Below, in pieces: positions 6,635 to 30,002 of a DNA stretch of 34,354 nt. Source of the stretch: Spirochaetaceae bacterium (GTDB lineage Bacteria > Spirochaetota > Spirochaetia > DSM-27196 > PWMO01); the NCBI GenBank assembly GCA_007693485.1, contig REDM01000158.1, positions 1-34,354 on the forward strand, read 5' to 3'. A program made the translations under genes and the position numbers. The notes under the pieces were generated by a model. That model saw only the letters and a program-made list of their open reading frames with translations, had not been told where the DNA came from and searched no databases. Numbering within the stretch: position 1 is the first letter of the stretch; every line of letters starts with the position of its first letter.

Positions 6635-6702
6635 GGTGTTGATTCGGTGTGCGCAGATGGCGACACGCGAGACAGCACCGGCAGATAAGGCGACGAAGCC
6701 GA

Positions 6703-8496: not shown

Positions 8497-8560
8497 TCCG
8501 GAACGCGCAGCGCAGGCTTTTTCCCCACCACGGAATCCGTGTACACTCCGGGCGAAACCT

Positions 8561-10908: not shown

Positions 10909-10930
10909 GAAGTGGTGCGAAAATTGTGCT
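10909..10930 (+). repeat. 22-bp direct repeat, left copy
   Basis: This sequence is identical to 22009-22030 and contains GTGGTGCGAAAATTGTGCT. It sits in the short gap between the converging TauE/SafE and GH116 genes and ends on the last base of the GH116 stop codon. Just left of it, GTGAAGTGCTGTGAAGTGG shows a further short tandem repetition. Together with the right copy it brackets the GH116-ROK-sqw block. Confidence 0.95.
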
Positions 10931-13383
10931 TATCCGGCTGCGAGATCCAGAAACCAGACCGCGAGCGGACGCATATTCATGGGCGCGCGGAACCGTCCTT
11001 CGGCGTCCCACGCTGCCGGTGTGCGAAACTGCAGGCCAGCGGGCCCGGTGAGCATGCCGACCATCGCGTCGCAGATTTCGCGGGACTCCGCATCCAGGCC
11101 ATAGAAGCGCATCATTGCGGCGGTCATCCACGCCGATCCCACGATTACCTCGTTGACCTGAAGCTCGTCACCGCCGTCACCAGAGAAGCGGGTCTGGCCC
11201 TTCGCCGCAAGCAGTAGGGGGCCAACCCGCCCGTCGGCGTACTGCGTGAAACAGTAGCGGTGCGCGGCCCGCAGGTGGGAGCGTATGGTCTCCCGGTCGA
11301 TATCGGAGATCAGACCACCAAGACCCGCCGCGTCCGCCAGAAAGAACCCCAGCACCGAGTCTCCCATGATGCAGTCGGCGTATTTGCCGGTGTCGCTCAC
11401 GCGGTAGTACTCGCCGGTCCAGAGCGCATCCACAAATGAGTGCTGCGCGGTCTGCAGCCTGCGGCGACACTCCGCCTCCAGCTCGCCATCGGAGAACTCC
11501 TCCGACCATCGAACCAGGGCCGCGAGCGCACCGATGGTGAGGCTCCCACTGTAAGCGGCTCGACCACGGATACCGAGGTTGTCCCAGGTGCTGTCGCCAA
11601 ACTCGTCGTGGACCGGCAGCCCGACGGTGGGGTCCGCCTGAGCCAGGGCGAAGAGCGCCGCCTCCCGGACGGTACGCCATTCGGTGTCATTGAGACGGTG
11701 GCCGGTGACTCGGTGATGCAGCGCGAGGCTGAGCAGGAAGGCAGGATTATGGTCCTTCCAGAGGTTGGAGTTGTCGCGCATCTGGTAGCCGTTGATGCGA
11801 TGCCACGGGTCTTCCATCACGGAGCCCAGATCGTGAGGAATCTTGCCCGCCACCGTCAGCCGCGCCATGGTTTCGGTACGGTAGATCAATTTCTCTTCGG
11901 CGAGTTCGATGGGTACCGTGGACAGCAGGTCACCAAACACGTTCCGCGCGGCGTCGGGCCACCATCGGGCCACCGCGTACCACGCGTAGGGCCAGAGGTC
12001 GCTGGTATTATAGTAGCAATACCCGATGTCGTAGCCCTCAAGGATGCCGAAGTGCTCACCGCCGCCGAGCAGCGGCGGTTCAATTCCGTGATCACGCTGA
12101 TCCACGCAGCCGTCCACCCAGACGGTACCGCCCCCGTTCAGAAAGGAGAGCTCGTTGATCATGAGACCGGCAAGCCCCGGCGCCTCGCGCACCCCGCCGA
12201 TCACCGCGGCGTGCCATGTGGCGATCGTCTCACGCCAGCCATCCATATGCGCGCGGGCGAGATCAATCATCTCCAGCGAGCGGCCTGCCTCGCGCCCAAA
12301 GAGCCGACAGTGCCGCCGATACCAGCTTCGACCACTTCCGAATCGAACGAGGGGCCAGTCGAACACAACGATGAAATCGAGGCGAGCCGATGCACCGGGA
12401 GCCAGGGTACACCCGCAGCTGGCGGCGGAACCGATTGCCTCATCCCAGTGTGCGGTCCACTCGCGGTTGGATTGAGGCAGGCGCCCGGTGGTGCGAAAAT
12501 TGTGCTCGGCCCACGCCACCGTGTGGCCCTGCTGATGGGGCGGCCGGTCGATGGCATTCTGTCCCGCCTTGAAGCAGCTCTCGTACGACACCCGTGGCTC
12601 GGATACCCCCGGCAGGCTGCTGGAATCCCCGCCGAGGCCGGCCCAGAGCACGGTCGTCCCTTCCATGTCACCGACTACCGGCCGCTCGGGGTGGCGCAGC
12701 TGACGGACCGAGACTCCGCCGGCGCCCGCTTCCGCAAGTCGAGCAGTGTTGCCCGAGTGGGTCTGGGAGGGCCAGCTGCGTGCGGGTCGGTCGACCGACG
12801 GCATCTGCTGGACGCGCCAGCCGAGCTGGTTTGGCCAGAAGCAGGCGGCGTCCACGTCCACCTCGGTGCTCCCAACGTTCCGCACGGTGAGCGAGGCGAT
12901 CCAGAGCGGCAGACTCGAGGCGTCCGAATCGCCGGGTATGATCGGAGAGAAGAACTCGGCGGCAATCTCCAGCGGGACGTCGGCGTGCGAATAGGTTTCG
13001 TGAATCACGGGGAAGAGCGAGAAGACCTCTCGACTGCCGGAACTCGCGTTCGTGCCCGACTCGGCGAGGCGAAACGCATCGGAGGCCGACGACGAGCTCC
13101 ATCGGACGGTGAAAAACGCTTCGTCGATGGTCTGGTTCACGTGGTGGCCGTTCTGCAGGTGCCAGCGCGAGAATCGGCCGTCGAGGTTTCGCCCACAGAC
13201 CGGCGCCCCCATTCCCCCGAGGAACATCCCCGTCAGGGGACCGTCGTCCTGACTCGCCGGTTTGGCCCGATACGGAGCGCGATGCGCGGTTTCGGGAAAC
13301 GGATAGCGATGCCCGTGCTGGAGGATGTCGCGGCGGGAGGTAACAGCGTCCCACGGATCACAGCGTGGCTCGCGGTCGGGCAT
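10930..13383 (-). CDS. GH116-family (GBA2-like) glycoside hydrolase
   Basis: This 817-residue protein has the two-domain plan of GH116. An N-terminal beta-rich domain opens with LTGMFLGGMGAPVCGRNLDG and DGRFSRWHLQNGHH, and a C-terminal (alpha/alpha)6 catalytic domain follows. The nucleophile motif INELSFLNGGGTVW gives E411. The acid/base motif TWDNLGIRGRAAYSGSL gives D601. Both match the FNELYFLADGGT and D..GxSAYCGGLW regions of characterised members. The family is retaining and beta-specific (beta-glucosidase, beta-xylosidase, glucosylceramidase). No signal peptide is seen, so it should be cytoplasmic. ATG at 13383 is chosen for its GAGAGG ribosome-binding site; an upstream in-frame extension runs into the regulator gene. 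It lies 10 bp downstream of the ROK regulator and probably shares its transcript, which ties it to the sulfo-TK operon. Confidence 0.8.
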   Translation of the reverse strand: MPDREPRCDPWDAVTSRRDILQHGHRYPFPETAHRAPYRAKPASQDDGPLTGMFLGGMGAPVCGRNLDGRFSRWHLQNGHHVNQTIDEAFFTVRWSSSSASDAFRLAESGTNASSGSREVFSLFPVIHETYSHADVPLEIAAEFFSPIIPGDSDASSLPLWIASLTVRNVGSTEVDVDAACFWPNQLGWRVQQMPSVDRPARSWPSQTHSGNTARLAEAGAGGVSVRQLRHPERPVVGDMEGTTVLWAGLGGDSSSLPGVSEPRVSYESCFKAGQNAIDRPPHQQGHTVAWAEHNFRTTGRLPQSNREWTAHWDEAIGSAASCGCTLAPGASARLDFIVVFDWPLVRFGSGRSWYRRHCRLFGREAGRSLEMIDLARAHMDGWRETIATWHAAVIGGVREAPGLAGLMINELSFLNGGGTVWVDGCVDQRDHGIEPPLLGGGEHFGILEGYDIGYCYYNTSDLWPYAWYAVARWWPDAARNVFGDLLSTVPIELAEEKLIYRTETMARLTVAGKIPHDLGSVMEDPWHRINGYQMRDNSNLWKDHNPAFLLSLALHHRVTGHRLNDTEWRTVREAALFALAQADPTVGLPVHDEFGDSTWDNLGIRGRAAYSGSLTIGALAALVRWSEEFSDGELEAECRRRLQTAQHSFVDALWTGEYYRVSDTGKYADCIMGDSVLGFFLADAAGLGGLISDIDRETIRSHLRAAHRYCFTQYADGRVGPLLLAAKGQTRFSGDGGDELQVNEVIVGSAWMTAAMMRFYGLDAESREICDAMVGMLTGPAGLQFRTPAAWDAEGRFRAPMNMRPLAVWFLDLAAG
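12488..12506 (+). repeat. 19-bp internal copy of the flanking repeat
   Basis: GTGGTGCGAAAATTGTGCT, identical to the core of the repeats at 10909 and 22009 and in the same orientation, lies inside the GH116 coding sequence, where the minus strand encodes EHNFRTT. A 19-bp chance match in a window this size is very unlikely. Confidence 0.9.
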
Positions 13384-13393
13384 CACCAACCTC

Positions 13394-14527
13394 TCAGGAC
13401 GCGCCCTGGAAGAACTGCTGGAAGACCAGATCGGTGGCGCCGTAGCATGCCTGGACCGGGTCGTACACAATCGAAATTACGTGGCGCTCGGGCAGCGTGC
13501 GCCGGGCTACGTCACCGAGGAGCCGCGCGAGCGAGGCGTACCGCGCAATGATCAGCACCGCCTTGGTATGAAATAGGTGGTCCAGGTTGCGAAGCGCCGC
13601 CGCGAAGACCGCCTGCGGGAACTCCAGAGCGTCGGCAAACTCCTGTGGTGACAGGCGCGCCTCTGCTTCATCCCACGTGCCGACGCCGAAGCGCTCCTGC
13701 AGCACCTCAAGCACCGCACGCTCCGAAACCACCGACTCGAGGCTTCGACCGCCGGGCTCGATTTCGGTGCGCCCCACCTCCAGAACCGTGGAGTGACCGT
13801 TCAGGAAAATCTTACCCTGATTGACGAGCGCACCACCGACGCCGGACCGCACCAGCACCGCTAGCAGGCTGTCCTGTCCGCGCGCATCACCGTAGTGGTA
13901 CGAACTCGAGGCTACCACCGAGGCGTTGTTGTGCACCAGCACGGGCGCACCAAACCGATCCTCAAAGTGAGCCTTGAGGTTGAACCCGGCGAGCCCTTCG
14001 ATCCGCTCGTACTCCAGAACCACGCCGGTGACCGTATCGATCATCCCCGGCGATGCAACGCCGATCCCAAGCAGCTCACCGGCGCTGATTCGGCTTTCGG
14101 AGATAGCCGTGCGGATCATGTCGTCGATTGCTTCGAGAATGTGATCGCAATGGGGTGCGGGATCGAGCTCGCGGGTCGTGTGGTAGATAACGTCGTTGCG
14201 GAAGTTGACCACAATCACCGAGGCGGTCTGGATCGAAAAATCGACGCCAACCGCATATCCGCTGTCAGGATTGACCGAGAAGAAGCTCGGACGCCGCCCC
14301 TTTCGCTCGCCGGCCGCGCCGGCGTCGTCCTCGGCACAGGATTCGCAGTGCTGGATCAGCTGTTCGGCCTCCAGCTTGGCAAATATGCGGTAGACGGTCG
14401 GAGCCTTGAGGCCGGTTTGCTGCACCACCTGGGACTGGGATAGCCGCTGATGCTGGAAGATGAGATTCAGGACCAGCTTTTCGTTGGTCTCGCGGATGTC
14501 GTTACTGCGCAGCGGTTGTCGGACCAA
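13394..14527 (-). CDS. ROK-family transcriptional regulator lacking the zinc motif
   Basis: The 377-residue protein has an N-terminal winged HTH (about 10-70; LVLNLIFQHQRLSQSQVVQQ, then GLKAPTVYRIFAKLEAEQLI) followed by a ROK sugar-kinase-like domain. That domain starts near YAVGVDFSIQTASVIVVNF and includes GIGVASPGMID and VRSGVGGALVNQGKIFLNG. The usual cysteine-rich zinc site (CxCGxxGCxE) is absent: after the GHSTVLEVGR segment the sequence goes straight to GRSLESVVSERAV. The protein probably lacks kinase activity and acts as a sugar-responsive repressor. Translation starts at TTG with GGGAAG six bases upstream. It is divergent from sqwG, and a palindrome over the sqw start site is the likely operator. 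The GH116 gene follows by 10 bp. Confidence 0.88.
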   Translation of the reverse strand: MVRQPLRSNDIRETNEKLVLNLIFQHQRLSQSQVVQQTGLKAPTVYRIFAKLEAEQLIQHCESCAEDDAGAAGERKGRRPSFFSVNPDSGYAVGVDFSIQTASVIVVNFRNDVIYHTTRELDPAPHCDHILEAIDDMIRTAISESRISAGELLGIGVASPGMIDTVTGVVLEYERIEGLAGFNLKAHFEDRFGAPVLVHNNASVVASSSYHYGDARGQDSLLAVLVRSGVGGALVNQGKIFLNGHSTVLEVGRTEIEPGGRSLESVVSERAVLEVLQERFGVGTWDEAEARLSPQEFADALEFPQAVFAAALRNLDHLFHTKAVLIIARYASLARLLGDVARRTLPERHVISIVYDPVQACYGATDLVFQQFFQGAS

Positions 14528-14673: not shown

Positions 14674-15513
14674 ATGAACAGTAGCGAAATTCGCTCCCTG
14701 CAGCGCAAGGCTGCGGAAATCCGACGCCTCACGGTGGAAGAGATTGCCCATCTGGGGATCGGTCACGTGGGTGGGTCGATGTCGATTGTCGAGGTTCTGG
14801 TTCTGCTCTATTACCGCCACCTGAAGATCGACCCTCGCGATCCTGCGCTGGAAACGCGCGACAAGTTTGTTATGTCCAAGGGCCATGCTGGACCGGCGCT
14901 CTACGCGGTGCTCGCCGACAAGGGATTCTTCCCCACGGCGATGCTGCAGACCCTCAATCAGGGCGGCACCAATCTTCCGAGCCACTGTGACATGAACCGG
15001 ACCCCCGGCATCGACATGACCACCGGCTCGCTCGGCCAGGGGCTCTCTGCGGCGGTGGGAATAGCCCTGGGGCACCGGCTGCGCAAACTGCCCGGCCGGG
15101 TCTTTGCACTCATCGGCGACGGCGACACCAACGAGGGGCAGACCTGGGAGGCGGCGATGTCGGCCTCGATGTTTGGTCTCGGAAACCTGGTCGCGTTCAC
15201 GGACTACAACAAGATGCAGATCGACGGCCCCATTGACGTCATCATGAAGACCGATCAACTGGTCGACCGATGGACCAGCTTTGGCTGGTTTGCGCAGCAG
15301 GTGCCGGGCCACGACTTTGCCGCCCTGGATGAGGCGCTGCAGAAGGCGCTTGCCGAAGAGAAGCGGCCGTCGATGATCATCGCCGACACCATCAAGGGAA
15401 AGGACCTGCCCGGTATCGAGGGCGACTACAACAATCACAACATGCCCATCAGCGCCGAGCAGGCCGAACAGCTGGTCGCATCGCTGCGTGAGCTCGAGGA
15501 GGCATCCGCATGA
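14674..15513 (+). CDS. sqwG: 6-deoxy-6-sulfofructose transketolase, N-terminal (TPP-binding) subunit
   Basis: This 279-residue protein corresponds to the TPP-binding half of transketolase. It has GHVGGSMS with H31, SKGHAGPALY with H71, and the TPP/metal motif GDGDTNEG (148-155) continuing to DYNKMQIDG. Split transketolases occur in several special pathways. Here the partner half, an RpiB-fold isomerase, an acylating aldehyde dehydrogenase and a SucCD-like pair follow at once. That is the gene set of the sulfo-TK route, in which the enzyme removes C2 units from 6-deoxy-6-sulfofructose and then from 4-deoxy-4-sulfoerythrulose, passing them to glyceraldehyde 3-phosphate. It has a strong ribosome-binding site (AAGGAG) and is first in the operon. 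Sequence alone shows only a transketolase subunit; the sulfosugar substrate rests on context. The alternative is an ordinary pentose-phosphate or apulose-phosphate transketolase. Confidence 0.75.
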   Translation: MNSSEIRSLQRKAAEIRRLTVEEIAHLGIGHVGGSMSIVEVLVLLYYRHLKIDPRDPALETRDKFVMSKGHAGPALYAVLADKGFFPTAMLQTLNQGGTNLPSHCDMNRTPGIDMTTGSLGQGLSAAVGIALGHRLRKLPGRVFALIGDGDTNEGQTWEAAMSASMFGLGNLVAFTDYNKMQIDGPIDVIMKTDQLVDRWTSFGWFAQQVPGHDFAALDEALQKALAEEKRPSMIIADTIKGKDLPGIEGDYNNHNMPISAEQAEQLVASLRELEEASA

Positions 15514-16514
15514 AATGGAATATCACCCGTCCCGCTGATCCCCAGCCCGAAGAGATGCGCGCCGTCTACGGCGATGTCCTCACTGCGATCGCTGCCGAAG
15601 ACGAACGCATCGTGGTCCTGGACGCCGACCTCATGAAGGCAAACGGGACCCTCGGCTTCAAGAAGGCGTACCCGGAACGCACCTTCGACGTTGGCGTGGC
15701 CGAAGCCAATATGGTCGGCGTAGCCGCCGGCCTGTCGGCCGTCGGACTCATCCCCTTCCCCGCAACCTTCACCTGTTTTGCGGCGCGGCGGACCTTCGAT
15801 CAGTTTTTCATCTCTGCGAACTACGCGCGGCTCAACGTCAAGCTCACCGGAACCGACCCGGGCGTCGCAGCCGCGTTCAACGGCGGCACCCACATGTCCT
15901 TTGAGGACATTGGCCTGATGCGGACCATCCCCAAGATCGTCATCTGCGAACCGAGCGATCCGGTGAGTCTGCGCAAACTGCTGCCCGAAATCACCTTCCG
16001 CTACGGGTCGAGCTATCTCCGCCTCCACCGCAAGCCAATCACCCGCATCTACGATGCATCGGAGACCTTTGAGTTGGGCCGTGGAAAGGTGCTGATCGAC
16101 GGTGAGGATCTGACCATCATCGCCGCCGGCGCCATCCTGGTGGCCGAGGCAATCAAGGCCGCCGAGAAGCTCGATGCCGAGGGCATATCCGCTGCGGTCA
16201 TCGACATGCACACCATCAAACCGATCGATGAGGAACTCGTCGTACAGTACGCGCGCAAGACCGGCGCAATCCTGACCGCGGAGAACCACCAGGTGAGAAA
16301 CGGCCTCGGCAGCGCCGTTGCCGAAGTGGTCACCGACCAGATTCCCGTGCCGATGGTGCGGGTGGGTATCCTCGACGAGTTTGGAGAAGTGGGTACGCAG
16401 GAGTTCCTGCAGGAACGATTTGGACTGACCGCGGAGAACCTGGTGGCCCAGGCGCGGGAACTGATGAACAAAAAAACCCGGGTGGGAGCATCACCCGCAA
16501 GGAGTCACGCATGA
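15510..16514 (+). CDS. sqwH: 6-deoxy-6-sulfofructose transketolase, C-terminal (pyrimidine) subunit
   Basis: The 334-residue second half of the split transketolase begins with the pyrimidine-binding domain. DVGVAEANMVGVAAGLS carries the Glu (E65) that activates the TPP aminopyrimidine; canonical transketolase has GIREHAMG here, so the following His is replaced. It is followed by FPATFTCFAARRTFDQ and THMSFEDIGLMR, then the transketolase C-terminal domain (about 200-325; LTIIAAGAILVAEAIKAAE, AVIDMHTIKPID). The ATG overlaps the sqwG stop by 4 nt, as expected for subunits needed in equal amounts. The last codons contain an A7 run followed by a small hairpin, noted among the findings. The substrate assignment rests on the operon. 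Confidence 0.75.
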   Translation: MKWNITRPADPQPEEMRAVYGDVLTAIAAEDERIVVLDADLMKANGTLGFKKAYPERTFDVGVAEANMVGVAAGLSAVGLIPFPATFTCFAARRTFDQFFISANYARLNVKLTGTDPGVAAAFNGGTHMSFEDIGLMRTIPKIVICEPSDPVSLRKLLPEITFRYGSSYLRLHRKPITRIYDASETFELGRGKVLIDGEDLTIIAAGAILVAEAIKAAEKLDAEGISAAVIDMHTIKPIDEELVVQYARKTGAILTAENHQVRNGLGSAVAEVVTDQIPVPMVRVGILDEFGEVGTQEFLQERFGLTAENLVAQARELMNKKTRVGASPARSHA

Positions 16515-16999
16515 GCAGCAAAACACGAATCGCCATTGTAAGCGACAAAGCCGGATTCTCTCTGAAGGCAGCAGTCACCGAATATCTTCAGAGCCGCGAT
16601 GACATCGACGTCATCGACTTCGGGTTGCACAGCGCCGACGAGGTGCAGCCCTACGACACGCAGGCACCCAAGGTTGCCCGCGCCATCCAGAAGGGTGAGG
16701 CGGACCGCGGGGTGCTGATCTGCGGCACCGGACAGGGTATGGCCATTGTTGCCAACAAGTTCAAAGGCGTCTACGCCGTCGTCGCCGACACGGTGTTTGC
16801 CGGCACGCGCGGCCGGATCATCAATAATTCCAACGCCATCACCATGGGCGGCTGGATCACCGCTCCCATTCTGGGCGTGGAGATCGTAAAAAGGTGGCTC
16901 GAGCTCGAGTTCACCCAGACCATGGAGGAACGCGCCGAGTGGCTTCAGGGAGCCTTTGATCGGCTTCAGAAGCTGGAAGGGGAGAACTTTACGGCATGA
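16511..16999 (+). CDS. sqwI: RpiB/LacAB-fold isomerase, probable 4-deoxy-4-sulfoerythrose isomerase
   Basis: The 162-residue protein has the RpiB/LacAB fold: IAIVSDKAGFSLKAAV at the N-terminus, catalytic cysteine C71 in LICGTGQGMAIVANK, and GRIINNSNAITMGGW. Two positions differ from ribose-5-phosphate isomerase B. The His after the first Asp is Lys (K13 in SDKAG), and the ring-opening His of the ARxHNNAN segment is Ile (I104). A sulfotetrose with sulfonate at C4 cannot form a furanose ring, so the ring-opening His would be dispensable. This fits the sulfo-TK role of converting 4-deoxy-4-sulfoerythrose to the erythrulose before the second transketolase cycle. The start overlaps the sqwH stop by 4 nt. 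An erythrose-phosphate isomerase is the main alternative. Confidence 0.72.
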   Translation: MSSKTRIAIVSDKAGFSLKAAVTEYLQSRDDIDVIDFGLHSADEVQPYDTQAPKVARAIQKGEADRGVLICGTGQGMAIVANKFKGVYAVVADTVFAGTRGRIINNSNAITMGGWITAPILGVEIVKRWLELEFTQTMEERAEWLQGAFDRLQKLEGENFTA

Positions 17000-18426
17000 G
17001 CGAAGCAACCCGGGAAGACGTCGAGCTGATCGCGGGCTACCTGCAGCGCGCCCGCGCGGCTCAGGCGCAGATCGCAGACTACTCGCAGGAACAGATCGAC
17101 GACGCCTGCCTCTCGGTTGCGTGGGAGGTGTACGCGGACGAAAACATCGCCGAGCTTGCCCGCATCGCGGTGGAAGCCACCGGCATGGGCAACGTGCGCG
17201 ACAAGATCACCAAGCACAAGGTGAAGGTGATGGGCGTGCTGCGCGACATCGTTGAAGCAAAAACCGTCGGGCTCATTGAGAAAAACGAAGCGACCGGCAT
17301 CTCCAAGTACGCCAAGCCGGTTGGGGTGATTGGGGCGCTGTTGCCGGTGACCAACCCGACCGCAACCCCGGCGAGCAACGGTCTGGGGATCCTGAAAGGG
17401 CGCAACGCGATGATTTTTGCCCCCCACCCCAAGGGTGCGGCCGCGAGCAAGGTCGCGGTGGAGTGCATGCGCCGCGGCCTGCGACGGGTGGGCGCCCCGG
17501 AGGATCTGATCCAGATCATCGAAGAGCCGTCGATCCCGCGAACCGGTGAACTGATGAAGCAGGTGGACCTGGTGGTTGCCACCGGCGGTGGTCCGATGGT
17601 GAAGGCCGCCTACTCCAGCGGAACGCCATCGTACGGAGTCGGACCCGGCAACTCGGTGCAGATCATCGCCGAGGATGCCGATGTGGCCGACGCGGTAGCA
17701 AAGATCGCGCTGAGCAAAGCGTTTGATTACGCCACCAGCTGCTCCAGCGAGAACAGCGTGATCATTCACGAGTCGCTCTACGACCAGGCCCTTGCGCTCT
17801 TCACCGGAAAAGAGAAGAGCTACCTGGTGACGGGCGCCGAGCGCGATCAGCTGCTGAAGTGGATGTGGCTGCCGAACAAGGCCGGAAAGCTCGCGCTCAA
17901 CCCGGAGATCATCGCCCACAGCGCGGAATCAATCGCGAACGGCGCGGGGTTCTCAGTCCTCGAAGGCACGCGCATTCTGCTGGTCGAAGGGACCATGCCT
18001 CTGGAAGAGGACAAGTTTGCCGACGAGAAGATCTCGCCGGTGCTCACCCTCTATCGGTACGGCACCTTCCCCGAAGCGGTCGAGATCCTCACCCGCCTTA
18101 CCGACAACGCGGGCACCGGCCACTCCTGCGGCATCCACACCTGGAAGCAGGAGTACATCCACGAGCTCGGCATGCGCATGCGCACCAGCCGGATCATGGT
18201 CCGCCAGCCGCAGGCGCCGGCCAACGGTGGCAACTTCTACAATGGGATGCCCAGCACCGTGACCCTTGGCTGTGGCACCTGGGGCGGCAACGTCACCACC
18301 GAGAATATCCACTGGAAGCACTTCATCAACGTCACCTGGGTGAGCGAACCCATCCCGGCGCGCAAGCCCACCGACGAGGAGATCTGGGGAGGGTTCTGGC
18401 AGCGCTACCCGAAGGAGCAGGCGTGA
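16996..18426 (+). CDS. sqwD: CoA-acylating sulfoacetaldehyde dehydrogenase
   Basis: This 476-residue aldehyde dehydrogenase belongs to the CoA-acylating group related to AdhE, EutE and SauS. The catalytic cysteine is C249 in ATSCSSENSVII, and VGVIGALLPVTNPTATPASNG (110-130) is the cofactor-binding start typical of this group. GGGPMVKAAYSSGTPSYGVGPGN (197-219) is equally typical. There are no shell-targeting N-terminal residues as in microcompartment enzymes. In the sulfo-TK scheme it oxidises sulfoacetaldehyde with NAD(P)+ and CoA to sulfoacetyl-CoA. The immediate SucCD-like neighbours, which could use that thioester to make ATP, support the role. The 4-nt overlaps on both sides indicate tight coupling. 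Acetaldehyde or another aldehyde remains possible from sequence alone. Confidence 0.75.
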   Translation: MSEATREDVELIAGYLQRARAAQAQIADYSQEQIDDACLSVAWEVYADENIAELARIAVEATGMGNVRDKITKHKVKVMGVLRDIVEAKTVGLIEKNEATGISKYAKPVGVIGALLPVTNPTATPASNGLGILKGRNAMIFAPHPKGAAASKVAVECMRRGLRRVGAPEDLIQIIEEPSIPRTGELMKQVDLVVATGGGPMVKAAYSSGTPSYGVGPGNSVQIIAEDADVADAVAKIALSKAFDYATSCSSENSVIIHESLYDQALALFTGKEKSYLVTGAERDQLLKWMWLPNKAGKLALNPEIIAHSAESIANGAGFSVLEGTRILLVEGTMPLEEDKFADEKISPVLTLYRYGTFPEAVEILTRLTDNAGTGHSCGIHTWKQEYIHELGMRMRTSRIMVRQPQAPANGGNFYNGMPSTVTLGCGTWGGNVTTENIHWKHFINVTWVSEPIPARKPTDEEIWGGFWQRYPKEQA

Positions 18427-19634
18427 AACTGTTTGAATACCAGGGCAAGGCGGTCTTTCAGGCCGCCGGCATCCCGGTGCCGGAATCCCGCCTGGTGCCG
18501 TGCACCAGCGCTTCCGTTGCCGTCATCGCCGGGCAGGTGGCAGAGGCCGTGCGCGAACTGACCGCGGCGAGCAGCTCCGACAACAAACCAGCCGGCGGTG
18601 ACACGGCGATCGTGGTGAAGGCGCAGCTCGACATGGGAGGTCGCGGCAAGGCGGGTCTGATTCACGTGGCGCGCGGCCCCGAAGCTGCCGCAGAAGCCGC
18701 CCGCACCATCATGGGCAAGGGATACACCATCCCCGCCCTGCTGGTAGAGCGCGCGGTCAGCATCGACCGTGAGCTCTACCTGTCGATCTCAGCGGACGCA
18801 ACCTCGGCGAACTTCGTGATTCTGGCGAGCGCAGAAGGGGGCGTGGACATCGAGGATCTGGCGAAGAACCGGCCGGAAGCGATCCGCCGGGTTGTGGTTG
18901 ATCCCTTTCGCGGACTGCAGGGCTACCAGAGCCGGGGCCTTGCCTACGATCTGGGCCTGAGCGACAACGTGGCGAAACAGTTTGCCGCCATGGTGGAGGC
19001 GCTCTACCGCGTCTTTCGCGGCAAGGACGCCGAGCTCGCCGAGATCAACCCGGTCTTCATCACCACCTCCGGTGAACTGATCGCCGGAGACAGCAAGCTG
19101 ATAATCGACGACAACAGCCTCTACCGGCAGCGGGAGTTCCAGCTCGCCCGCGAGCAGTTTGACTCGGACGCCGCCTACGAGGCCGCGGTTGAAGGCATCC
19201 CCTACCTGCAGTTTGACGGCGACATCTCGCTGATGTGCGCCGGCGCCGGACTCGCGACCACGGTTTTTGATCTGGTGAATTACGGCGGCGGCGCAGTCGC
19301 CAACTACCTTGAGTTCGGCGGCCCAAACTACCAGAAGGCTCAGCGCGCGATGGAACTCTGCCTGAAGAACCAGAGCTCGGTAATCCTCGTAGTGACCTTT
19401 GGGACCATCGCCCGCGCCGACGTCATGGCGCAGGGCATTGTGGACGCGATGAAACTCCTGAAGCCCGACCGCCCGATTGTAACCTGCATCCGAGGCACCA
19501 ACGAAGAAGAGGCCCACGAGACCCTGCGGGCGGCCGGGCTCGAGCCACTGCTCGACACCGAGGTGGCGGTACAGCGCGCGATCGACCTGGCCGCGGCGAG
19601 AAAAGGCAGGGAAAAGAAGGATGGAAGGGCATGA
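18423..19634 (+). CDS. sqwK: ADP-forming acyl-CoA (sulfoacetate-CoA) ligase, SucC-like beta subunit
   Basis: The 403-residue protein begins KLFEYQGKAVFQAAGIPVPES, the ATP-grasp start of succinyl-CoA synthetase beta subunits. It has VVKAQLDMGGRGKAGLI as the nucleotide-binding loop region and AELAEINPVFIT (metal/nucleotide site). A C-terminal CoA-ligase domain follows (SLMCAGAGLATTVFDLVNYGGG, YLEFGGPNYQKA). The normal SucC reading GGGA-NFLDxGG is altered to GGGAVANYLEFGG, consistent with a non-TCA substrate. The start is GTG at 18423, overlapping the sqwD stop by 4 nt (GTGA). Together with SqwL it would convert sulfoacetyl-CoA and ADP to sulfoacetate, CoA and ATP, a substrate-level phosphorylation step. 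TCA-cycle SucC is unlikely given the neighbours. Confidence 0.75.
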   Translation: MKLFEYQGKAVFQAAGIPVPESRLVPCTSASVAVIAGQVAEAVRELTAASSSDNKPAGGDTAIVVKAQLDMGGRGKAGLIHVARGPEAAAEAARTIMGKGYTIPALLVERAVSIDRELYLSISADATSANFVILASAEGGVDIEDLAKNRPEAIRRVVVDPFRGLQGYQSRGLAYDLGLSDNVAKQFAAMVEALYRVFRGKDAELAEINPVFITTSGELIAGDSKLIIDDNSLYRQREFQLAREQFDSDAAYEAAVEGIPYLQFDGDISLMCAGAGLATTVFDLVNYGGGAVANYLEFGGPNYQKAQRAMELCLKNQSSVILVVTFGTIARADVMAQGIVDAMKLLKPDRPIVTCIRGTNEEEAHETLRAAGLEPLLDTEVAVQRAIDLAAARKGREKKDGRA

Positions 19635-20527
19635 GCATCTACGTCAATCGAGAGACCCGCATCCTGGTCCAGGGCATTACCGGAAACGAGGGTGCGTTCT
19701 GGTCCAAACACATGCTGGACATGGGATCGAAGGTGGTCGCCGGCGTTACACCCGGGAAAGAGGGGCAGAAGGTACACGGCGTGCCGGTCTTCCACAGCGT
19801 GGCGCGTGCCGTGGCCTCAACCGAAGTTGAGGCGGCGATGCTCTTTGTTCCGCCACGCTTCACCCGCGACGCGGTGTACGAGGCACTCGACGCCGGTATC
19901 CGCAAGGTGGTGACCATTGCCGACGGCATTCCCCTGCAGGATCAGATTCAGATACGCGCCCACGCACAGAGTCTGGGCGCGCAGGTGGTGGGCGGCAACA
20001 CCTCCGGCGTGATCTCGCCGGGCGCGTCGATGCTCGGAATGTTTCCCTACTGGATCGAGCGCGTCTACAAGCCGGGAACCATCGGCGTGATGACGCGCTC
20101 CGGTTCACTCACCAACGAGGTGACCGCCATGGTAGTGCGCGCCGGGTACGGTGTCTCGACCCTCGTTGGCGTGGGCGGCGACCAGGTACCGCTCTCGCGC
20201 TTTGCCGAGTTCCTGCCCGCCTACCAGGCCGACCCGGCCACGCAGGCGGTGGTGATTATTGGAGAGCTCGGCGGCACCATGGAAGAAGAGGTCGCCGCGG
20301 AGATTGCCGCAGGCCGCTTCACCAAACCGCTGGTCGCCTTTATTGGCGGGCGGACGGCACCGGCGGGAAAGCGCATGGGACACGCGGGTGCGATTGTCAC
20401 CGGCACAACGGGCACGGTGGCAAGCAAGGTAGCGGCGCTGGAAGCCGCAGGCGCCCTGGTAGCCGACCGCCCGAGCGCGGTGGGTGCACTCTTGCAGCAG
20501 GCGATGCAGAAGGCGGGACATCAATGA
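19631..20527 (+). CDS. sqwL: ADP-forming acyl-CoA (sulfoacetate-CoA) ligase, SucD-like alpha subunit
   Basis: This 298-residue subunit has the Rossmann CoA-binding domain ([30 protein letters not shown]) and the active-site histidine H251 in GHAGAIVTG, which carries phosphate between CoA ligation and ADP. The segment [11 protein letters not shown] replaces the SucD reading GPNCPGIITPG, so the acyl pocket differs from true succinyl-CoA synthetase. That supports a different acid substrate, here inferred to be sulfoacetate. The start overlaps the sqwK stop by 4 nt and the stop overlaps the transporter start by 4 nt. It completes the energy-conserving end of the pathway. Confidence 0.75.
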
Positions 20528-22005
20528 GTGACACACAGAAGAAAAAGGCGCCGGGACTGGAACTCTCGCGCGGAACACGCTGGGCCTTCCTGGGTGTAGC
20601 CTTTGCGATTGCTCTCGCGGCATTCCTGTTCCCGCTTCCGGAGAGCATCCGCACCGTCAATGAGCTCACGCTCACGCCGCAGGGGCAGACCACCATGGGG
20701 ATCCTGCTCTTCGCGCTGCTGCTCTGGGTGAGCGAAGCGATTCCCTTCCACCTGACCGGTCTGATCGGAATGATCCTGATCGCACTCTTTGGCGTGACCA
20801 GTTTCACGCAGGTGGTGAGCATCGGGTTTGGGAACCATATCTTTGTGTTCTTCATCGGCGTGCTGATTCTGTCGAGCTTCATCACCCGGTCGGGACTGGG
20901 TAACCGGATCTCGGTCTATCTGCTGTCAAAAACGGGCAACAGCACCTCGGCCATCATCTTCGGCTTTCTGGTGGCGGGGATGTTCCTCTCCATGTGGATC
21001 ACCAACACCGCGGTCGCGGCCATGCTGATGCCGCTGGGCGTTGCCATCCTGAAAGAAGAGGGAGTGCCGCCGCTGAAGAGCAACTTCGGCAAGGCGCTGA
21101 TGATCGCCTGCGCGTGGGGGCCGATTGTCGGGGGGCTGATGGCGCCCTCGGGGGCGGGTCCCAATCCCATTGCGATCGGCTTTCTGAAAGAGATGGTCGG
21201 CATCGAGCTGACCTTTGTGGGGTGGATGCTCTACGGTGTGCCCGCCGGAATCCTCCTGCTCTTCCCCACCTGGTGGATCCTGCTGCTGTTTTTCAAGCCC
21301 GAGATGAAGCGCCTTAAGAAAAGCAAGGAAGAGCTGCGTGCGGCGTACGCGGAGCTGCCGCCGATGGATCGCGAGCAGAAGGTGACGCTGGTGCTCTTCG
21401 CCACCACCGTGGTGCTCTGGCTCATCACCCCGCTGCTCGAGGCGCTGCTCGGCGTCTCAATTCCCATTTCGCTTCCGGTGATGATCACCGGCGCCCTCTT
21501 TTTCTTTCCCGGCGTGGCAACCACCACCTGGGAGAAGGTCGAGAAGGAGATCAGCTGGAGCAGCATCCTGCTCATCGTGTCGGGGATTTCGCTGGGGATG
21601 GTTCTCTACCAGACCGGCGCCGCGGAGTGGCTCGCCATTGCGATGCTCGGCGGTGTGGGCGGATTGCACCCCTTCCTGCTTGTGCTGCTGGTTGTGCTCA
21701 TCGTCGAGTTCCTGAAGGTCTTTCTCTCGAGTAACACCGTGACGGCAACCATCGTTATCCCGATCATGATTACCCTGGCTGCCAACCTCGGCATCGACGC
21801 CCTCAGCATCACCATGCCCGCAGCGCTCAGCACCAGCATGGCCTTCATCCTGGTGACCAGCACGCCCACCAACGTAATCCCCTACACCGCGGGCTACTTC
21901 TCCATCCGCGACATGGCGGTTGCCGGCCTGGTGATGACGCTCATCGCAGCACCCATCGTCGCGGCGACGATCTTCATCATCGGTGGATTCACCGGGTTGT
22001 ATTGA
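20524..22005 (+). CDS. DASS/SLC13-family anion transporter, candidate sulfonate transporter
   Basis: The 493-residue protein has about 11-12 hydrophobic segments and the paired sodium-site motifs of the divalent anion:sodium symporter family: WITNTAVAAMLMPLGVAIL in the first half, and LSSNTVTATIVIP with TSTPTNVIPYTAG in the second. Family members carry sulfate, dicarboxylates, citrate and sulfonates by symport or exchange. As the last gene of the sqw operon, coupled by a 4-nt overlap, it most likely moves a pathway compound: sulfoacetate out, or the sulfosugar in, possibly as an exchanger. The sequence does not show direction. A repeat and a small hairpin follow before the convergent kinase gene. 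Confidence 0.8.
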   Translation: MSDTQKKKAPGLELSRGTRWAFLGVAFAIALAAFLFPLPESIRTVNELTLTPQGQTTMGILLFALLLWVSEAIPFHLTGLIGMILIALFGVTSFTQVVSIGFGNHIFVFFIGVLILSSFITRSGLGNRISVYLLSKTGNSTSAIIFGFLVAGMFLSMWITNTAVAAMLMPLGVAILKEEGVPPLKSNFGKALMIACAWGPIVGGLMAPSGAGPNPIAIGFLKEMVGIELTFVGWMLYGVPAGILLLFPTWWILLLFFKPEMKRLKKSKEELRAAYAELPPMDREQKVTLVLFATTVVLWLITPLLEALLGVSIPISLPVMITGALFFFPGVATTTWEKVEKEISWSSILLIVSGISLGMVLYQTGAAEWLAIAMLGGVGGLHPFLLVLLVVLIVEFLKVFLSSNTVTATIVIPIMITLAANLGIDALSITMPAALSTSMAFILVTSTPTNVIPYTAGYFSIRDMAVAGLVMTLIAAPIVAATIFIIGGFTGLY

Positions 22006-22076: not shown

Positions 22077-23588
22077 TTACACCGTGCCCAGCGAGCGACT
22101 GATCTCGCGGATTTGAGGGTAGATTTTCGCGTAGACATCGCGCAACCGATCATATGTTGCGCGATGCTCGCTGTTGGGATGGAAACTTTGCTGCAGGCGC
22201 ACCGTTGATTGCGACGCATCGACCATGTCCCGATACACTCCAATACCCACTCCCGCGAGCAACGCAGCCCCGAGGGCCGTTGACTCGCTGACATCGGGGA
22301 TGTTCACCGTCAGTCCAGTCACATCCGCCTTCAGTTGCTGCCAGAAGTGGTTTCGCGCCCCACCCCCAACGGTGTTCAATGCGGTCACCCGTGCGCCAAA
22401 GCTCGACTCGACCGCGTCAAGGAGATTGCGGAGTTCCAGGCAGAGCCCTTCAAATACGGCCCGTGAGAGATGCGCCCGCGAGTGTTCGGCACGCAGCCCC
22501 ACGAAGGCGCCTCGTGCGCCGGGATCCCAAATGGGAGCCCCGGCGCCGAGAAGATGCGGTACAAAACAGAGGCCGTTACATCCGGGGGGAACCGATCGCG
22601 CAGCCTCGATCAGTCCGTGATAGCCGTCCGGCGAGCCCTTTTCATCATCGGCCCAGATACTGCGCAATACCCATTCGACGGAAGCCCCTGATGCCAGAAT
22701 GCCCCCCATCGTTGCATATCGAGAAGGATCCAGAAAGAACCCGACCCGCATTCCGTTTGGCCGCCGGGGTCGGGGCCGGTCCGGTGGAAGAAGGGTCATG
22801 ATGCTCTCTACGGTTCCCGACGAGTCGAGTACCACGTCGTCGATCAGTGCGCCCGCGGCGAGAAACGCGCAGTGATGGTCGTGCCCACCCATAACCACCG
22901 GGGTTCCCTGGGACAGTCCCGTCTCGCGCGCTGCGACGGAGGTTACGCTACCAAGCGGTTTTCCCGAGGCAAGAACCGGGGGGAAAATTGATGTCTCCAG
23001 ACCCAGGGTTTCGAGAATCTCGGAGGACCACCTCCGTCCGTCAAGCTCGAATGCCAGTGTGCGAGAAGCCTGGCTGTAATCGGTCGCAATCTCTCCGGTC
23101 AACCGGTAGTTGACGTAATCGGCGATGGGAAGCCACGTAGCAACACGGGCGTAACGTTCCGGTTCATTGTCCCGGATCCAGGCGATCTTGGGAACCGAGA
23201 ACACCGGATTCGGATCCAACCCGGTCAGCTCGTAGAGTCGATCGGGCCCGATGGTGCGATTCATCTCTTGAGCTTGCGGCGTTGAACGCGGATCATACCA
23301 CGGTATCGCTGGATAGACAGGGCGTCCTTCCCTGTCAATGGGAACACCAGATTCCGCCATGCCGGTAACGGAAATCGCCCCAACGCCCGACAACCGGTAT
23401 TTCTCCTGGAGTTGTCTCAACAAAGTGCAGACGGTGTTCCAGAGTTCCTCCGGGTCGTAATACTGCCCCTTCTCGTCGGTATGAACGAGTGCCGCGCTGT
23501 CCATGGTGCCGATCAAGCGCCCATCCGGATGAAACGCAGCCACTTTCCAGTTCGTCGTGCCAACGTCAACTGCGAGCAGAGTTCCCAT
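22077..23588 (-). CDS. FGGY-family carbohydrate kinase
   Basis: The 503-residue kinase has the two-domain FHKS/FGGY fold. The N-terminal phosphate-1 loop is LLAVDVGTTNWKVAAF. The acidic catalytic region is GGHDHHCAFLAAGA, followed by a DSSGTVESIMTL loop. The FGGY-C signature reads FEGLCLELRNLLDAVESSFG, with GGGARNHFWQQLKADVTG and STALGAALLAGVGIGVYRD. Family members phosphorylate ketoses, polyols or sugar acids (xylulose, fuculose, gluconate, erythritol, glycerol). The exact substrate is not readable. It starts 34 bp after the LarA-like gene on the same strand, so the kinase probably acts on the epimerised or oxidised product of that pathway. It converges on the sqw operon and is regulated separately. 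Confidence 0.87.
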   Translation of the reverse strand: MGTLLAVDVGTTNWKVAAFHPDGRLIGTMDSAALVHTDEKGQYYDPEELWNTVCTLLRQLQEKYRLSGVGAISVTGMAESGVPIDREGRPVYPAIPWYDPRSTPQAQEMNRTIGPDRLYELTGLDPNPVFSVPKIAWIRDNEPERYARVATWLPIADYVNYRLTGEIATDYSQASRTLAFELDGRRWSSEILETLGLETSIFPPVLASGKPLGSVTSVAARETGLSQGTPVVMGGHDHHCAFLAAGALIDDVVLDSSGTVESIMTLLPPDRPRPRRPNGMRVGFFLDPSRYATMGGILASGASVEWVLRSIWADDEKGSPDGYHGLIEAARSVPPGCNGLCFVPHLLGAGAPIWDPGARGAFVGLRAEHSRAHLSRAVFEGLCLELRNLLDAVESSFGARVTALNTVGGGARNHFWQQLKADVTGLTVNIPDVSESTALGAALLAGVGIGVYRDMVDASQSTVRLQQSFHPNSEHRATYDRLRDVYAKIYPQIREISRSLGTV

Positions 23589-23622
23589 GACTATGTTCCG
23601 TTCTCCAATCGCGCGAAGCCGC

Positions 23623-25071
23623 TCATTCCGGTGAGGAGTGCTGCATGGTCAGATGCACCGCCGCGGTGCGGAACGTTCGTGGCAACGCGAGAACCCTGGG
23701 TGACGGACCGACGTATCGCCGTTTCGCATCGGCGAACGCATCCTCGAAGGTCGCTCGCGTCTGCATCCCCATTGCCCGTGCGTACCCTGGCTCGTACGCC
23801 CCAACAAGATAGATCGCCGCACAGTGCCGTTCGGCGATATGACCGCAACTCACCATGGAGAACGCGTGATACGGGTGATAGCCGTAGTTGAATCGATATC
23901 GCTTGATGAACTCCTCATTGTTGCAGAAGTACTCGCCGTGCTCCGCGAGGTCCGGCAACGTATTGTGATAGTCCTTCTGGTACAGGTCGAAGAGTTCGCG
24001 ATACCCTGTGAACTCTTCATCGTGAAAATACCCGTTGCAGATTGAAGAGCAAATGACCACGCTTCGGTCCGACAAGACGCGTCGATGGCGAATCACGTTC
24101 GCAGCGATGGCCTGGAGAATGAGAATCGGGTTGGTTCCGTGGCCGTTGCCGTAGTGAAACGCCTGCGGCATTCCAAACACCATGACATCGAAGGGCTCTT
24201 CCGCCCACGGGACATAGGTGCGTTTGTCGGCGACCTCCCAGGAAGCCGGTTGCATTGCAATACCATGCCCCGCGAACACGGCTATTTGTCGCGCGTTCGT
24301 ATCGAGTACTGCGTCGACGAGGAAAAACGGTTTCCCCATCTGCGACTCCATGTGTTGTCCGATGGCGTCGAACTTTCGACGCATGAGGCTTTTTGAGTTG
24401 ACAGGCGTGAAATCCGTGCGGTGCATCACGTCGGGCACGTGGTGAGCCGCGATCGTTCGCCAGTGGGTGATTCCCGTTGCCACGTGCTTATACCCGCCGG
24501 AGTACCCACCGTAGGGGTTCCCCATGGTGTGGCCCACGGCGATTGTCAGATCGGCTTCAAACGCCGTTCTGTTCATAATAACGTGATCGTTGAGTTCATC
24601 GTGGCCGAGATCGACCAGATCCTCCCAGTCTTCCGAGTCGTGATTCTTGATCTGGTTTGACCACCAGAATTGATCGAACACGCGATCGCCGAGAATCGCC
24701 CGGATTTCGTTTTTGGTGTTCTTGCGGTGCAGACCGTTGGAGCAGATCAATGTAATGTCCTGGGGACGGACGCCGGCGGCGTAACACTCTTCAAGCAGGA
24801 TTGGGATCGCCACCTTGCGATGACTTGTTTCCTGAAAGCCGCCTTTCACGCGATCAGGAAACACAATACAGACACGAGAACCGGCACCCACGAGATCACT
24901 GATCGGCGCCATTCCCATTGGGTTGCGAATTGCATGACGAGTCGCTTCTTCGAGCCGGTCCGTCGGAATATACGGTGGATCCGCCACGGTTTCGCCGGGA
25001 ACAAATTTCCTGGTCGTGTCCGGCAGATCCGCGCTCATCATCCCCTGTCCGTATTCGAAATCGATATTCAT
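23623..25071 (-). CDS. LarA-like (DUF2088) nickel-pincer racemase/epimerase homologue
   Basis: This 482-residue protein belongs to the lactate racemase LarA superfamily. SNGLHR carries H115. The core GHTMGNPYGGYSGGYKHVATGI carries H181 and K195, the Lys that in LarA covalently holds the nickel-pincer nucleotide. The LarA substrate motif DxTRP is changed to FPDRVKGG (D73, R74). About four residues are inserted between H181 and K195 compared with LarA. It is longer than LarA (about 425). These changes argue against lactate and for another 2-hydroxy acid; known homologues act on malate, gluconate and others. ATG at 25071 is chosen for its GGAGTG ribosome-binding site. The larB, larC and larE cofactor genes are not in the window. 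The FGGY kinase follows. Confidence 0.8.
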   Translation of the reverse strand: MNIDFEYGQGMMSADLPDTTRKFVPGETVADPPYIPTDRLEEATRHAIRNPMGMAPISDLVGAGSRVCIVFPDRVKGGFQETSHRKVAIPILLEECYAAGVRPQDITLICSNGLHRKNTKNEIRAILGDRVFDQFWWSNQIKNHDSEDWEDLVDLGHDELNDHVIMNRTAFEADLTIAVGHTMGNPYGGYSGGYKHVATGITHWRTIAAHHVPDVMHRTDFTPVNSKSLMRRKFDAIGQHMESQMGKPFFLVDAVLDTNARQIAVFAGHGIAMQPASWEVADKRTYVPWAEEPFDVMVFGMPQAFHYGNGHGTNPILILQAIAANVIRHRRVLSDRSVVICSSICNGYFHDEEFTGYRELFDLYQKDYHNTLPDLAEHGEYFCNNEEFIKRYRFNYGYHPYHAFSMVSCGHIAERHCAAIYLVGAYEPGYARAMGMQTRATFEDAFADAKRRYVGPSPRVLALPRTFRTAAVHLTMQHSSPE

Positions 25072-25190
25072 GGTCACTCCCGTTTTTTCGTCGCCCCACG
25101 ATATTAGCATGTGGACCGTGAGGCGTCAACGACCGATCCGTCTATGATTCTCAACGATGATCCGAAGGTTCGAATTCGTACCACCGGGTC

Positions 25191-25219
25191 TTGGGTTCCG
25201 ACGGTAATCCGGTTAGAAT
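25191..25219 (+). promoter_or_regulatory. Promoter of the second ROK gene
   Basis: TTGGGT (25191-25196), a 17-bp spacer and TAGAAT (25214-25219) lie 24 bp before the ROK ATG in the 172-bp divergent gap. For the opposite strand only a loose TAATAT near 25110 is visible. I found no convincing palindrome in this gap. Confidence 0.55.
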
Positions 25220-25243
25220 ACGCCATCCGGCTGGACAGGGACG

Positions 25244-26467
25244 ATGAGAGTAGAACCGAGCGAGCTTACCGAAAACCAACGGTGCGTTGTGACCCTTCTC
25301 CAGAAATCAGGACCGCTGTCCAAGGGAGAGCTCGCTGAGCGCGGCAACATGGGTTGGGCAACGGTCGTGAAAGTCGTCGGACAGCTCAGTGCAGCGGGAA
25401 TCGTCGAACGGTTGGGAACTGCTCCCGGCGATCCAACGAAGAAGGGCAAGCGTGCGTACCTTTACGGTCTCACCCGCAGCACGCCTCTGGCGGTTGGAAT
25501 CGATGTCGAATACCGAACTACCACGATGGTACTCACCAACCTTTACGGTGACATTCTCGCACAGCAGACAACCGCCACCGTGGAACCAACTTCGGATCGT
25601 GCGATTCGTGAGTTTCTGTACGGGTGCATCCAGGGGTTTCTGAACACCCACTCCGTGGGCTCTGGACTGTGCGGAATCGGAATCGGTGTACCCGGCATCG
25701 GGTTTCCGTCGCGTACCCAGCTGGACAACCTCATCTCCATGCAGGAACTCTCGCGGTGGTTGGCGGCACGGTTGCGCATGAACGTTCAGGTTCGCGACAA
25801 CACCAAGAGCTACGCGGTATTCGAACAGTGGAGCAACCAGACCTTCGCGTACGAAGACTTCGTGTTCATTTCCATCCGGACGGGAATCGGCAGCGGAATC
25901 TTCCATCACGGAGACCTCTACCTGGGAACCCACGGTCTCTCCGGGGAGATCGGCCACATTCAGACCGTTCCTAAGCGCGGAGTGGCCTGCCGGTGCGGCA
26001 AGAGTGGATGCATGGAGACCGTCGTTGGACAGCGCAACCTGTACCGGTCATACTGCCTTCGGGTCCTTCGCGACGAAGCGCGCGCTGAGGGGTCCGAGCA
26101 GGCAGACCAGGAGACACTTTCACAGGCACTCTGCGATCTGTTCAGCCGGGCACGTCGGGGAGAGTCGGCAGCGTTACGGATCGTTACCGAAGCGGCTGAG
26201 CACCTCGGCCGTTGTATCGCATACACCATCCTGGTGTTGGACATCTCCAACATCATCATCAGCGGCCATTTCGGCCCCGATGGGGTGCTCCTCGAAGAGT
26301 TGCTGCAAGCAGAACTCGCCCGAACGCTCTTGCGAGGAGCATCGTATTCGGTTCGCTACGTACCCTTCGACCCATTGGGACACGTCCGGGGCGCCGCCCT
26401 GCTCGTACTGAAAGAATACCTGATCGATCTGCGATCGAATCATATCGACCACAACGAAGACTTATAA
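25244..26467 (+). CDS. ROK-family transcriptional regulator with intact zinc motif
   Basis: The 407-residue protein has an N-terminal winged HTH (about 10-70; CVVTLLQKSGPLSKGELAER, then ATVVKVVGQLSAAGIVERL) and a ROK domain with AVGIDVEYRTTTMVLTNL, GIGVPGIGF and SIRTGIGSGIFHHGDLY. The zinc-binding signature CRCGKSGCMET is complete, in contrast to the first ROK protein of this window. The GEIGH segment carries the sugar-contacting Glu and His of ROK kinases, so ligand binding is likely. It sits between the leftward larA-like/kinase pair and the converging aldolase gene, so it is the probable repressor of this locus. Its last codons TTA TAA overlap the aldolase stop. Confidence 0.88.
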   Translation: MRVEPSELTENQRCVVTLLQKSGPLSKGELAERGNMGWATVVKVVGQLSAAGIVERLGTAPGDPTKKGKRAYLYGLTRSTPLAVGIDVEYRTTTMVLTNLYGDILAQQTTATVEPTSDRAIREFLYGCIQGFLNTHSVGSGLCGIGIGVPGIGFPSRTQLDNLISMQELSRWLAARLRMNVQVRDNTKSYAVFEQWSNQTFAYEDFVFISIRTGIGSGIFHHGDLYLGTHGLSGEIGHIQTVPKRGVACRCGKSGCMETVVGQRNLYRSYCLRVLRDEARAEGSEQADQETLSQALCDLFSRARRGESAALRIVTEAAEHLGRCIAYTILVLDISNIIISGHFGPDGVLLEELLQAELARTLLRGASYSVRYVPFDPLGHVRGAALLVLKEYLIDLRSNHIDHNEDL

Positions 26468-27358: not shown

Positions 27359-27367
27359 GGGCAGCCC

Positions 27368-28144: not shown

Positions 28145-28205
28145 GTAGCACCTCGGTTATATGTTATAGTAGGATATTTATTATTGCAAGCAGGATAACT
28201 CAGGA

Positions 28206-28234
28206 TTGACAGGTACACAAGCCTATGCTAACGT
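28206..28234 (+). promoter_or_regulatory. Promoter of the TPI-SDR-ABC operon, nearly leaderless
   Basis: TTGACA (28206-28211), a 17-bp spacer and TAACGT (28229-28234) place the start site near 28241, only about three bases before the ATG at 28244. No Shine-Dalgarno is seen there. On the other strand of the same 99-bp gap, TTGCAA and TAACAT with 17-bp spacing could serve the SDR gene. Confidence 0.6.
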
Positions 28235-28243
28235 CATGGTACG

Positions 28244-29982: not shown

Positions 29983-29988
29983 GTGAGG

Positions 29989-30002
29989 CAACTCTGGAGT
30001 TG
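29989..30002. repeat. CAACTC-TG-GAGTTG inverted repeat
   Basis: A perfect 6-bp palindrome with a 2-bp centre starts seven bases after the SDR stop in the 133-bp gap before the solute-binding protein. It has no U-tract. It could be a small mRNA hairpin or a protein-binding site. Further on, GAGGTG (about 30024) and CACCTC (about 30068) could also pair. The true ribosome-binding site of the next gene is the GGGGG before 30116. Confidence 0.4.

Follow-up and report, generated by a model that had tools for sequence, protein, structure and literature searches.

A probable oxidative sulfo-transketolase operon in a Spirochaetaceae bacterium, adjoined by a GH116 glycosidase that may be a sulfoquinovosidase

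Sulfoquinovose (SQ), a sulfosugar of plants and algae, is produced at about 10 billion tonnes per year. The glycosidases that release it, of which two families (GH31 and GH188) are known, are a diagnostic gateway for finding SQ pathways in genomes (PMC10755693). Bacteria with the sulfo-transketolase (sulfo-TK) pathway and neither of these families have been noted, and a yet-unknown sulfoquinovosidase is considered possible (PMC13219744). In the sulfo-TK pathway, sulfofructose and two molecules of glyceraldehyde 3-phosphate are converted into two xylulose 5-phosphate and sulfoacetaldehyde, from which SqwD and SqwKL of the oxidative variant yield sulfoacetate with NADH and ATP (PMC9594981, PMC12890257, PMC11659671). 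Two reports that cite Chu et al. 2023 place the oxidative variant in Acholeplasma and Spirochaetes (PMC12890257, PMC11659671). Here we describe a seven-gene operon of a Spirochaetaceae bacterium that very probably encodes the oxidative sulfo-TK branch of sulfoglycolysis, leading from SQ to sulfoacetate, and the GH116 glycosidase gene that lies beside it. The window is the whole contig C14 (34,354 nucleotides) of an assembly of 3.76 Mb in 304 contigs that is 92% complete.

In the oxidative sulfo-TK system of Acholeplasma sp., a single operon likewise encodes these six types of enzyme and no SqwF (PMC12890257, PMC11659671). The spirochaete locus differs in that a DASS transporter gene closes the operon, a GH116 gene adjoins it and neither known sulfoquinovosidase was found. 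The reductive sulfo-TK pathway of Clostridium sp. MSTE9 (SqwGH, SqwI, SqwF) shares the split transketolase and the RpiB-type isomerase, but its SqwF leads to isethionate, whereas SqwD and SqwKL would lead to sulfoacetate here (PMC9594981); no SqwF was found among the operon genes. The CoA-acylating dehydrogenase and the ADP-forming CoA ligase are shared with the SauS/SauCD sulfoacetate degradation of Bilophila, which runs in the opposite direction and without transketolase or SqwI (PMC12890257). The operon core is thus ordinary and of a known kind, because the oxidative variant has already been reported from Spirochaetes, and the GH116 gene beside it is the new part.

The seven genes lie on the forward strand at 14674-22005, as an earlier note made from the sequence alone had placed them, and their families held when Pfam and NCBIfam profile models with curated cut-offs were used. 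The transketolase is split into an N-terminal half with the thiamine-diphosphate domain (SqwG candidate, 14674-15513; PF00456, 174 bits) and a C-terminal half (SqwH candidate, 15510-16514; PF02779 and PF02780), the latter 54-77% identical to its copies in the conserved operons of other genomes. They are followed by an RpiB/LacAB-fold candidate for the 4-deoxy-4-sulfoerythrose isomerase SqwI (16511-16999; PF02502, 128 bits), a candidate for the CoA-acylating sulfoacetaldehyde dehydrogenase SqwD (Aldedh family, 16996-18426), and the two subunits of a candidate ADP-forming sulfoacetate-CoA ligase, namely a SucC-like beta subunit with a GTG start (SqwK candidate, 18423-19634; PF08442, ATP-grasp_2, and PF00549, Ligase_CoA) and a SucD-like alpha subunit (SqwL candidate, 19631-20527; PF02629, CoA_binding, and PF00549). 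The last gene encodes a DASS-family anion transporter (20524-22005; TIGR00785, 230 bits, above cut-off), a candidate sulfoacetate exporter. All six of the six junctions are 4-bp overlaps, the pattern of a tightly coupled operon. The catalytic features named in the earlier note, Cys249 of the dehydrogenase and the phosphohistidine His251 of the SucD-like subunit, are both in place. The best NCBIfam model for the dehydrogenase was SauS (NF047625; 516 bits), ahead of AdhE (412 bits); because the score is below the SauS cut-off of 600 bits, the match indicates the same kind of enzyme and not a formal equivalog. The SucC-like subunit scored under every NCBIfam cut-off for succinate- and malate-CoA ligases, and the SucD-like subunit narrowly under that for succinate-CoA ligase. 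The families, His251 and the conserved pairing of the two ligase subunits are all present, and sulfoacetate is the candidate substrate.

In the proposed route, SQ released from a glycoside would be isomerised to 6-deoxy-6-sulfofructose, and SqwGH would transfer carbons 1-2 of sulfofructose to glyceraldehyde 3-phosphate, with xylulose 5-phosphate and 4-deoxy-4-sulfoerythrose as products. SqwI would convert the latter to the corresponding ketose, which SqwGH would cleave to a second xylulose 5-phosphate and sulfoacetaldehyde. Sulfoacetaldehyde would be oxidised by SqwD to sulfoacetyl-CoA with a gain of NADH, SqwKL would turn this into sulfoacetate with formation of ATP, and the DASS protein, a TauE-family protein or both would export the product. 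The substrates, the direction of the reactions and the identity of the exporter are what we infer in this assignment.

Conservation was analysed in 393 genomes of the phylum Spirochaetota, which were searched with the operon dehydrogenase. A strong match was found in 28 genomes, and the full seven-gene set was present in the same order in 10 others than the source genome (G378, G130, G293, G335, G074, G245, G363, G321, G343 and G372), with 45-81% identity per protein. The operon is not a chance grouping, because the complete ordered set recurs in these 10 genomes. Together with G380, which carries the last five operon genes, the sample holds 12 set-bearing genomes, 11 of them with complete sets; G323 and G355 have the dehydrogenase homologue only and no set. 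The DASS gene is last in every complete copy. Three further named contigs of metagenome-assembled genomes (MAGs; L088, L089 and L090) carry the set in part, as far as the sequence examined extends, and the closest named locus is that of the Spirochaetaceae MAG DLM2.Bin48 (L088), with operon proteins 72-87% identical. The ROK-family regulator gene divergent from the operon (13394-14527, reverse strand; Pfam ROK) is found at the same position in G378, G130, L088 and L089 (51-74% identical).

In six relatives, but not in the source genome, the gene set is linked to a sulfoquinovosidase. A GH31 glycosidase above the cut-off of the YihQ model PRK10426 (814-913 bits; cut-off 553) adjoins the set in G378, G130, G245, G343, G372 and G380, and that of G130 aligned with E. 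coli YihQ structures at E = 5e-205. Six GH31s of set-bearing genomes keep all five of the E. coli YihQ residues Q262, Q288, R301, W304 and Y508, which we take to be those that read the sulfosugar. The YihQ-type GH31s of G130 (L046:16733-18820) and G378 (L070) have Gln at YihQ position 301, and their sulfonate reading may be altered. G378 also has a GH188 homologue (PDB 8QC2, 8QC3; 198 bits, next family 52 bits), which in alignment keeps the sulfonate-binding Arg and Lys of ArSqgA (PMC10755693). SftI-family isomerases with 58-85% mutual identity adjoin the set in G378, G130, G293, G335 and Spirochaeta sp. GH27, a more distant member of this family adjoins it in G372, and an ABC importer does so in the nearest relatives.

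The maximum-likelihood tree of transketolase N-terminal halves (35 rows) placed the operon copies and one extra G245 copy in a clade with 100/100 support, and nine full-length transketolases, including the source genome's own on C88, in a separate 100/100 group. The operon transketolase thus separates from the housekeeping enzymes, a comparison that the earlier note had put forward, and its reading of the genes as SqwGH-SqwI-SqwD-SqwKL is supported by this tree, by the linkage in relatives and by the SauS score. The operon RpiB shares only 34% identity with the second RpiB of the source genome; a housekeeping origin of the operon transketolase and RpiB was rejected by the tree and by this low identity. 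The extra transketolase N-half of G245 (L113, C17:16305-17060), which falls within the operon clade, and a second YihQ above cut-off in the same genome (C178:31982-34030) suggest a second sulfosugar locus there.

The GH116 gene (10930-13383, reverse strand) lies outside the region covered by the earlier note, and its family has not previously been linked to SQ. Its ATG is 11 bp after the ROK stop codon. Family membership is given by both domains above cut-off (PF04685, 213 bits; PF12215, 139 bits) and by the kept catalytic Glu/Asp pair, and the protein is a candidate sulfoquinovosidase. It also matches the solved structure Tlr0193 over its full length; a literature search on Tlr0193 returned nothing, and an AlphaFold model of the GH116 protein from six sequences had a mean pLDDT of 45.7, too low to use. 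The same subfamily (50-62% identical) was found in G293, in G335, probably Alkalispirochaeta alkalica DSM 8900 (L092), and in the MAGs DLM2.Bin48, Spirochaeta sp. GH27, PLM2.Bin37 and T3Sed10_372. With the source genome included, seven genomes were found to have it, and it adjoins operon genes in each of them.

Among the 12 set-bearing genomes of the phylum sample, the three with GH116 have neither YihQ nor GH188. YihQ above cut-off is present in eight of the nine without GH116, and the remaining one (G363) has YihQ-like fragments only, on other contigs. A simple count puts at about 2e-5 the chance that all three GH116 genomes among 393 would fall within the 12, a figure in which G293 and G335 are not independent because they belong to the same genus. 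The gene order in G293 and Alkalispirochaeta is binding protein, permease, permease, GH116 and convergent operon, and in G378 it is binding protein, permease, permease, GH188 and convergent operon. GH116 in Alkalispirochaeta occupies the slot of the GH188 homologue of G378. In relatives, GH31 YihQ and GH188 SqgA (PMC10755693) occupy the position that GH116 has with respect to the operon; GH116 is unrelated to both in sequence. In L088, a binding protein and two permeases (6691-9983) lie between ROK and GH116, with a possible GH116 start about 9 bp after the permease stop. These importer genes are absent from the window, where ROK and GH116 are only 11 bp apart (13383-13394).

The active site was compared with that of the TxGH116 beta-glucosidase (PDB 5BVU and others). 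In TxGH116, an arabinofuranose analogue binds with its primary hydroxyl held by Glu777 and Arg786, and ring hydroxyls are recognised by Asp452 and His507 (PMC11375437, PMC10509167). Glu441 (nucleophile), Asp593 (acid/base), Asp452, His507, Thr591, Arg786 and Arg792 all have their equivalents in 7/7 distinct GH116 copies, and the catalytic residues are of the glucose type. The Glu777 position differs, being Ala in 7/7 subfamily copies (Ala790 of the source genome's protein, or Ala819 when counted in a longer ORF), and many neighbouring positions also differ; Glu is found there in L123, a GH116-type protein unlinked to the operon. A natural reading is that the substrate would be gluco-configured with a modified, anionic C6; a xyloside is another. 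Loss of the Glu777 carboxylate while Arg786 is retained would provide space and charge for a C6 sulfonate, and we give somewhat less than an even chance to the operon-linked subfamily being a third unrelated sulfoquinovosidase family. That the enzyme substitutes for YihQ and SqgA in freeing the sulfosugar is likewise a tentative proposal, a little short of evenly balanced.

The earlier note had also listed the SQ isomerase as missing; a gene of the SQ isomerase family is, in fact, present at the right-hand contig end (33351-34354, reverse strand). It encodes an SftI/SqvD-type (FucI-like) protein and is a candidate SQ isomerase. The right end of C14 and the start of C239 share an exact 55-bp overlap, and joining them would complete a protein of 451 residues with its N-terminus on C239. 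Among NCBIfam models it scores best against that of the sulfoquinovose isomerase SftI (NF048012), at 118 bits for the C14 part and far under the cut-off of 700. The isomerases linked to the operon in relatives are 41-43% identical to it. As better candidates, the FucI-like genes of C10 and C81 were considered and rejected.

The earlier note had reported that the locus lacks a known sulfoquinovosidase and an SQ importer, and this was borne out genome-wide in the 92%-complete assembly, where no YihQ, GH188 or importer of the relatives' type was found. No GH31 of the source genome exceeded the YihQ cut-off (best 187 bits versus 553), and the GH31 on C66 was rejected as YihQ since the YihQ residues are absent from it. 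No homologue of the G378 GH188 protein was found in this genome at E <= 1e-20, SqvB (PF16161) was found there neither above cut-off nor as an ortholog, and no ortholog of the relatives' importer binding protein was found in the assembly (best 29% identity). An ABC sugar importer of a binding protein and two permeases (30116-33307, forward strand; Pfam SBP_bac_1 and BPD_transp_1) lies beside the SftI-like gene; its permeases are 28-33% identical to those of the operon-linked importers, and it is a possible candidate for a substitute. A second candidate sulfonate exporter, which like GH116 the earlier note does not mention, is a TauE/SafE-family protein (10145-10891, forward strand; PF01925, 145 bits), whose gene adjoins GH116 in the window and, at the same position and 76% identical, in L088; another TauE-family gene follows the operon in G130. 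Either DASS or TauE could export sulfoacetate.

Several points weigh against an oxidative SQ pathway at this locus. The dehydrogenase and the isomerase both score under the curated SauS and SftI cut-offs, the likeness to the characterised Sqw proteins is indirect, drawn from families, residues and the gene set, and because the source genome lacks YihQ, GH188 and an importer of the relatives' type, the entry into the pathway is only putative there. SqwI activity has never been directly measured in any organism (PMC9594981). Use of the same enzymes on another sulfosugar or another anionic hexose glycoside, not on sulfolipid-derived alpha-SQ, would offer a reason for the replacement of YihQ and the divergent isomerase in this clade. 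Such an entry sugar fits the absence of YihQ and GH188 beside the presence of GH116, the only 41-43% identity of the SftI-like protein to relatives' isomerases, the Gln at YihQ 301 in the nearest YihQ-bearing relatives (G130 and G378) and the existence of a known sulfofucose pathway (PMC12421959). We consider it unlikely, however: the core enzymes share 62-87% identity with their counterparts in relatives with YihQ or GH188 adjoining, and a different C4-C6 chemistry is therefore improbable. A reversed operon end, with DASS importing sulfoacetate and SqwKL and SqwD reducing it to sulfoacetaldehyde for assimilation, has a very low probability. DASS proteins are mostly importers, which speaks for this direction. 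The homologous SauCD and SauS operate so in Bilophila (PMC12890257), but the cluster has no sulfoacetaldehyde reductase or sulfite lyase, transketolase and SqwI genes are present in all complete copies, and glycosidases and sugar importers adjoin. That ordinary pentose-phosphate and tricarboxylic acid cycle genes lie together by chance is scarcely credible, even though all operon families include central-metabolism enzymes: housekeeping versions of transketolase and RpiB are encoded separately in the source genome, the operon copies stand apart phylogenetically, every ligase and transketolase equivalog cut-off was missed, and the set is conserved beside sulfoquinovosidases.

The role of GH116 is weighed separately, and a serious alternative, which we rate just below an even chance, is an ordinary beta-glucosidase or beta-xylosidase that accompanies the cluster without acting on sulfosugars. 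SQ is alpha-linked in sulfolipid, which speaks for this alternative and against a sulfosugar role. The GH116 enzymes characterised so far are retaining glycosidases specific for beta linkages (PMC11375437, PMC10509167). Ala at position 777 would also suit a xyloside, which has no C6. In Spirochaeta sp. GH27, a 135-codon frame after GH116, at the contig end, weakly matches the YihQ N-terminus (26 bits), and GH116 and YihQ may therefore coexist there. An ordinary glycosidase is harder to reconcile with the adjoining position of the subfamily in 7/7 genomes, with its taking the slot that GH188 has in G378, and with the lack of YihQ and GH188 in the phylum-sample genomes that bear it. A sulfosugar role, if true, would make the enzyme a beta-sulfoquinovosidase under the usual GH116 stereochemistry, or an alpha-acting GH116 if its substrate is the alpha-SQ derived from sulfolipid. 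To our knowledge, neither has a precedent. The SQ linkage in archaeal S-layer N-glycans is beta, and these glycans would be a possible GH116 substrate. The presence of SQ in them has been reported (PMC9855744).

Next to the operon, a second sugar cluster (22077-33307) encodes an FGGY kinase, a LarA-like protein, a ROK regulator, a class II aldolase, two short-chain dehydrogenases/reductases, a triosephosphate isomerase-like protein and the ABC importer, with the SftI-like isomerase at its end. By analogy, it resembles an isomerase-kinase-aldolase route; sulfo-EMP2 uses the SqvD isomerase and a class II aldolase. No such cluster was seen beside sulfo-TK in the neighbourhoods of relatives. C239 (L038:6460-7576) carries a sulfopyruvate/phosphonopyruvate decarboxylase-like pair (alpha part 153.6 bits, cut-off 148), near which lie genes for an aldehyde dehydrogenase, a TRAP transporter and amidohydrolases. 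Sulfopyruvate decarboxylation would likewise give sulfoacetaldehyde.

The operon would add to the known cases of the oxidative sulfo-TK pathway, and its expected product is sulfoacetate. For the sulfo-TK bacteria that have neither known sulfoquinovosidase, the GH116 locus provides a concrete candidate; a cultured type strain with the gene exists (Alkalispirochaeta alkalica DSM 8900), and the single-residue prediction is testable.

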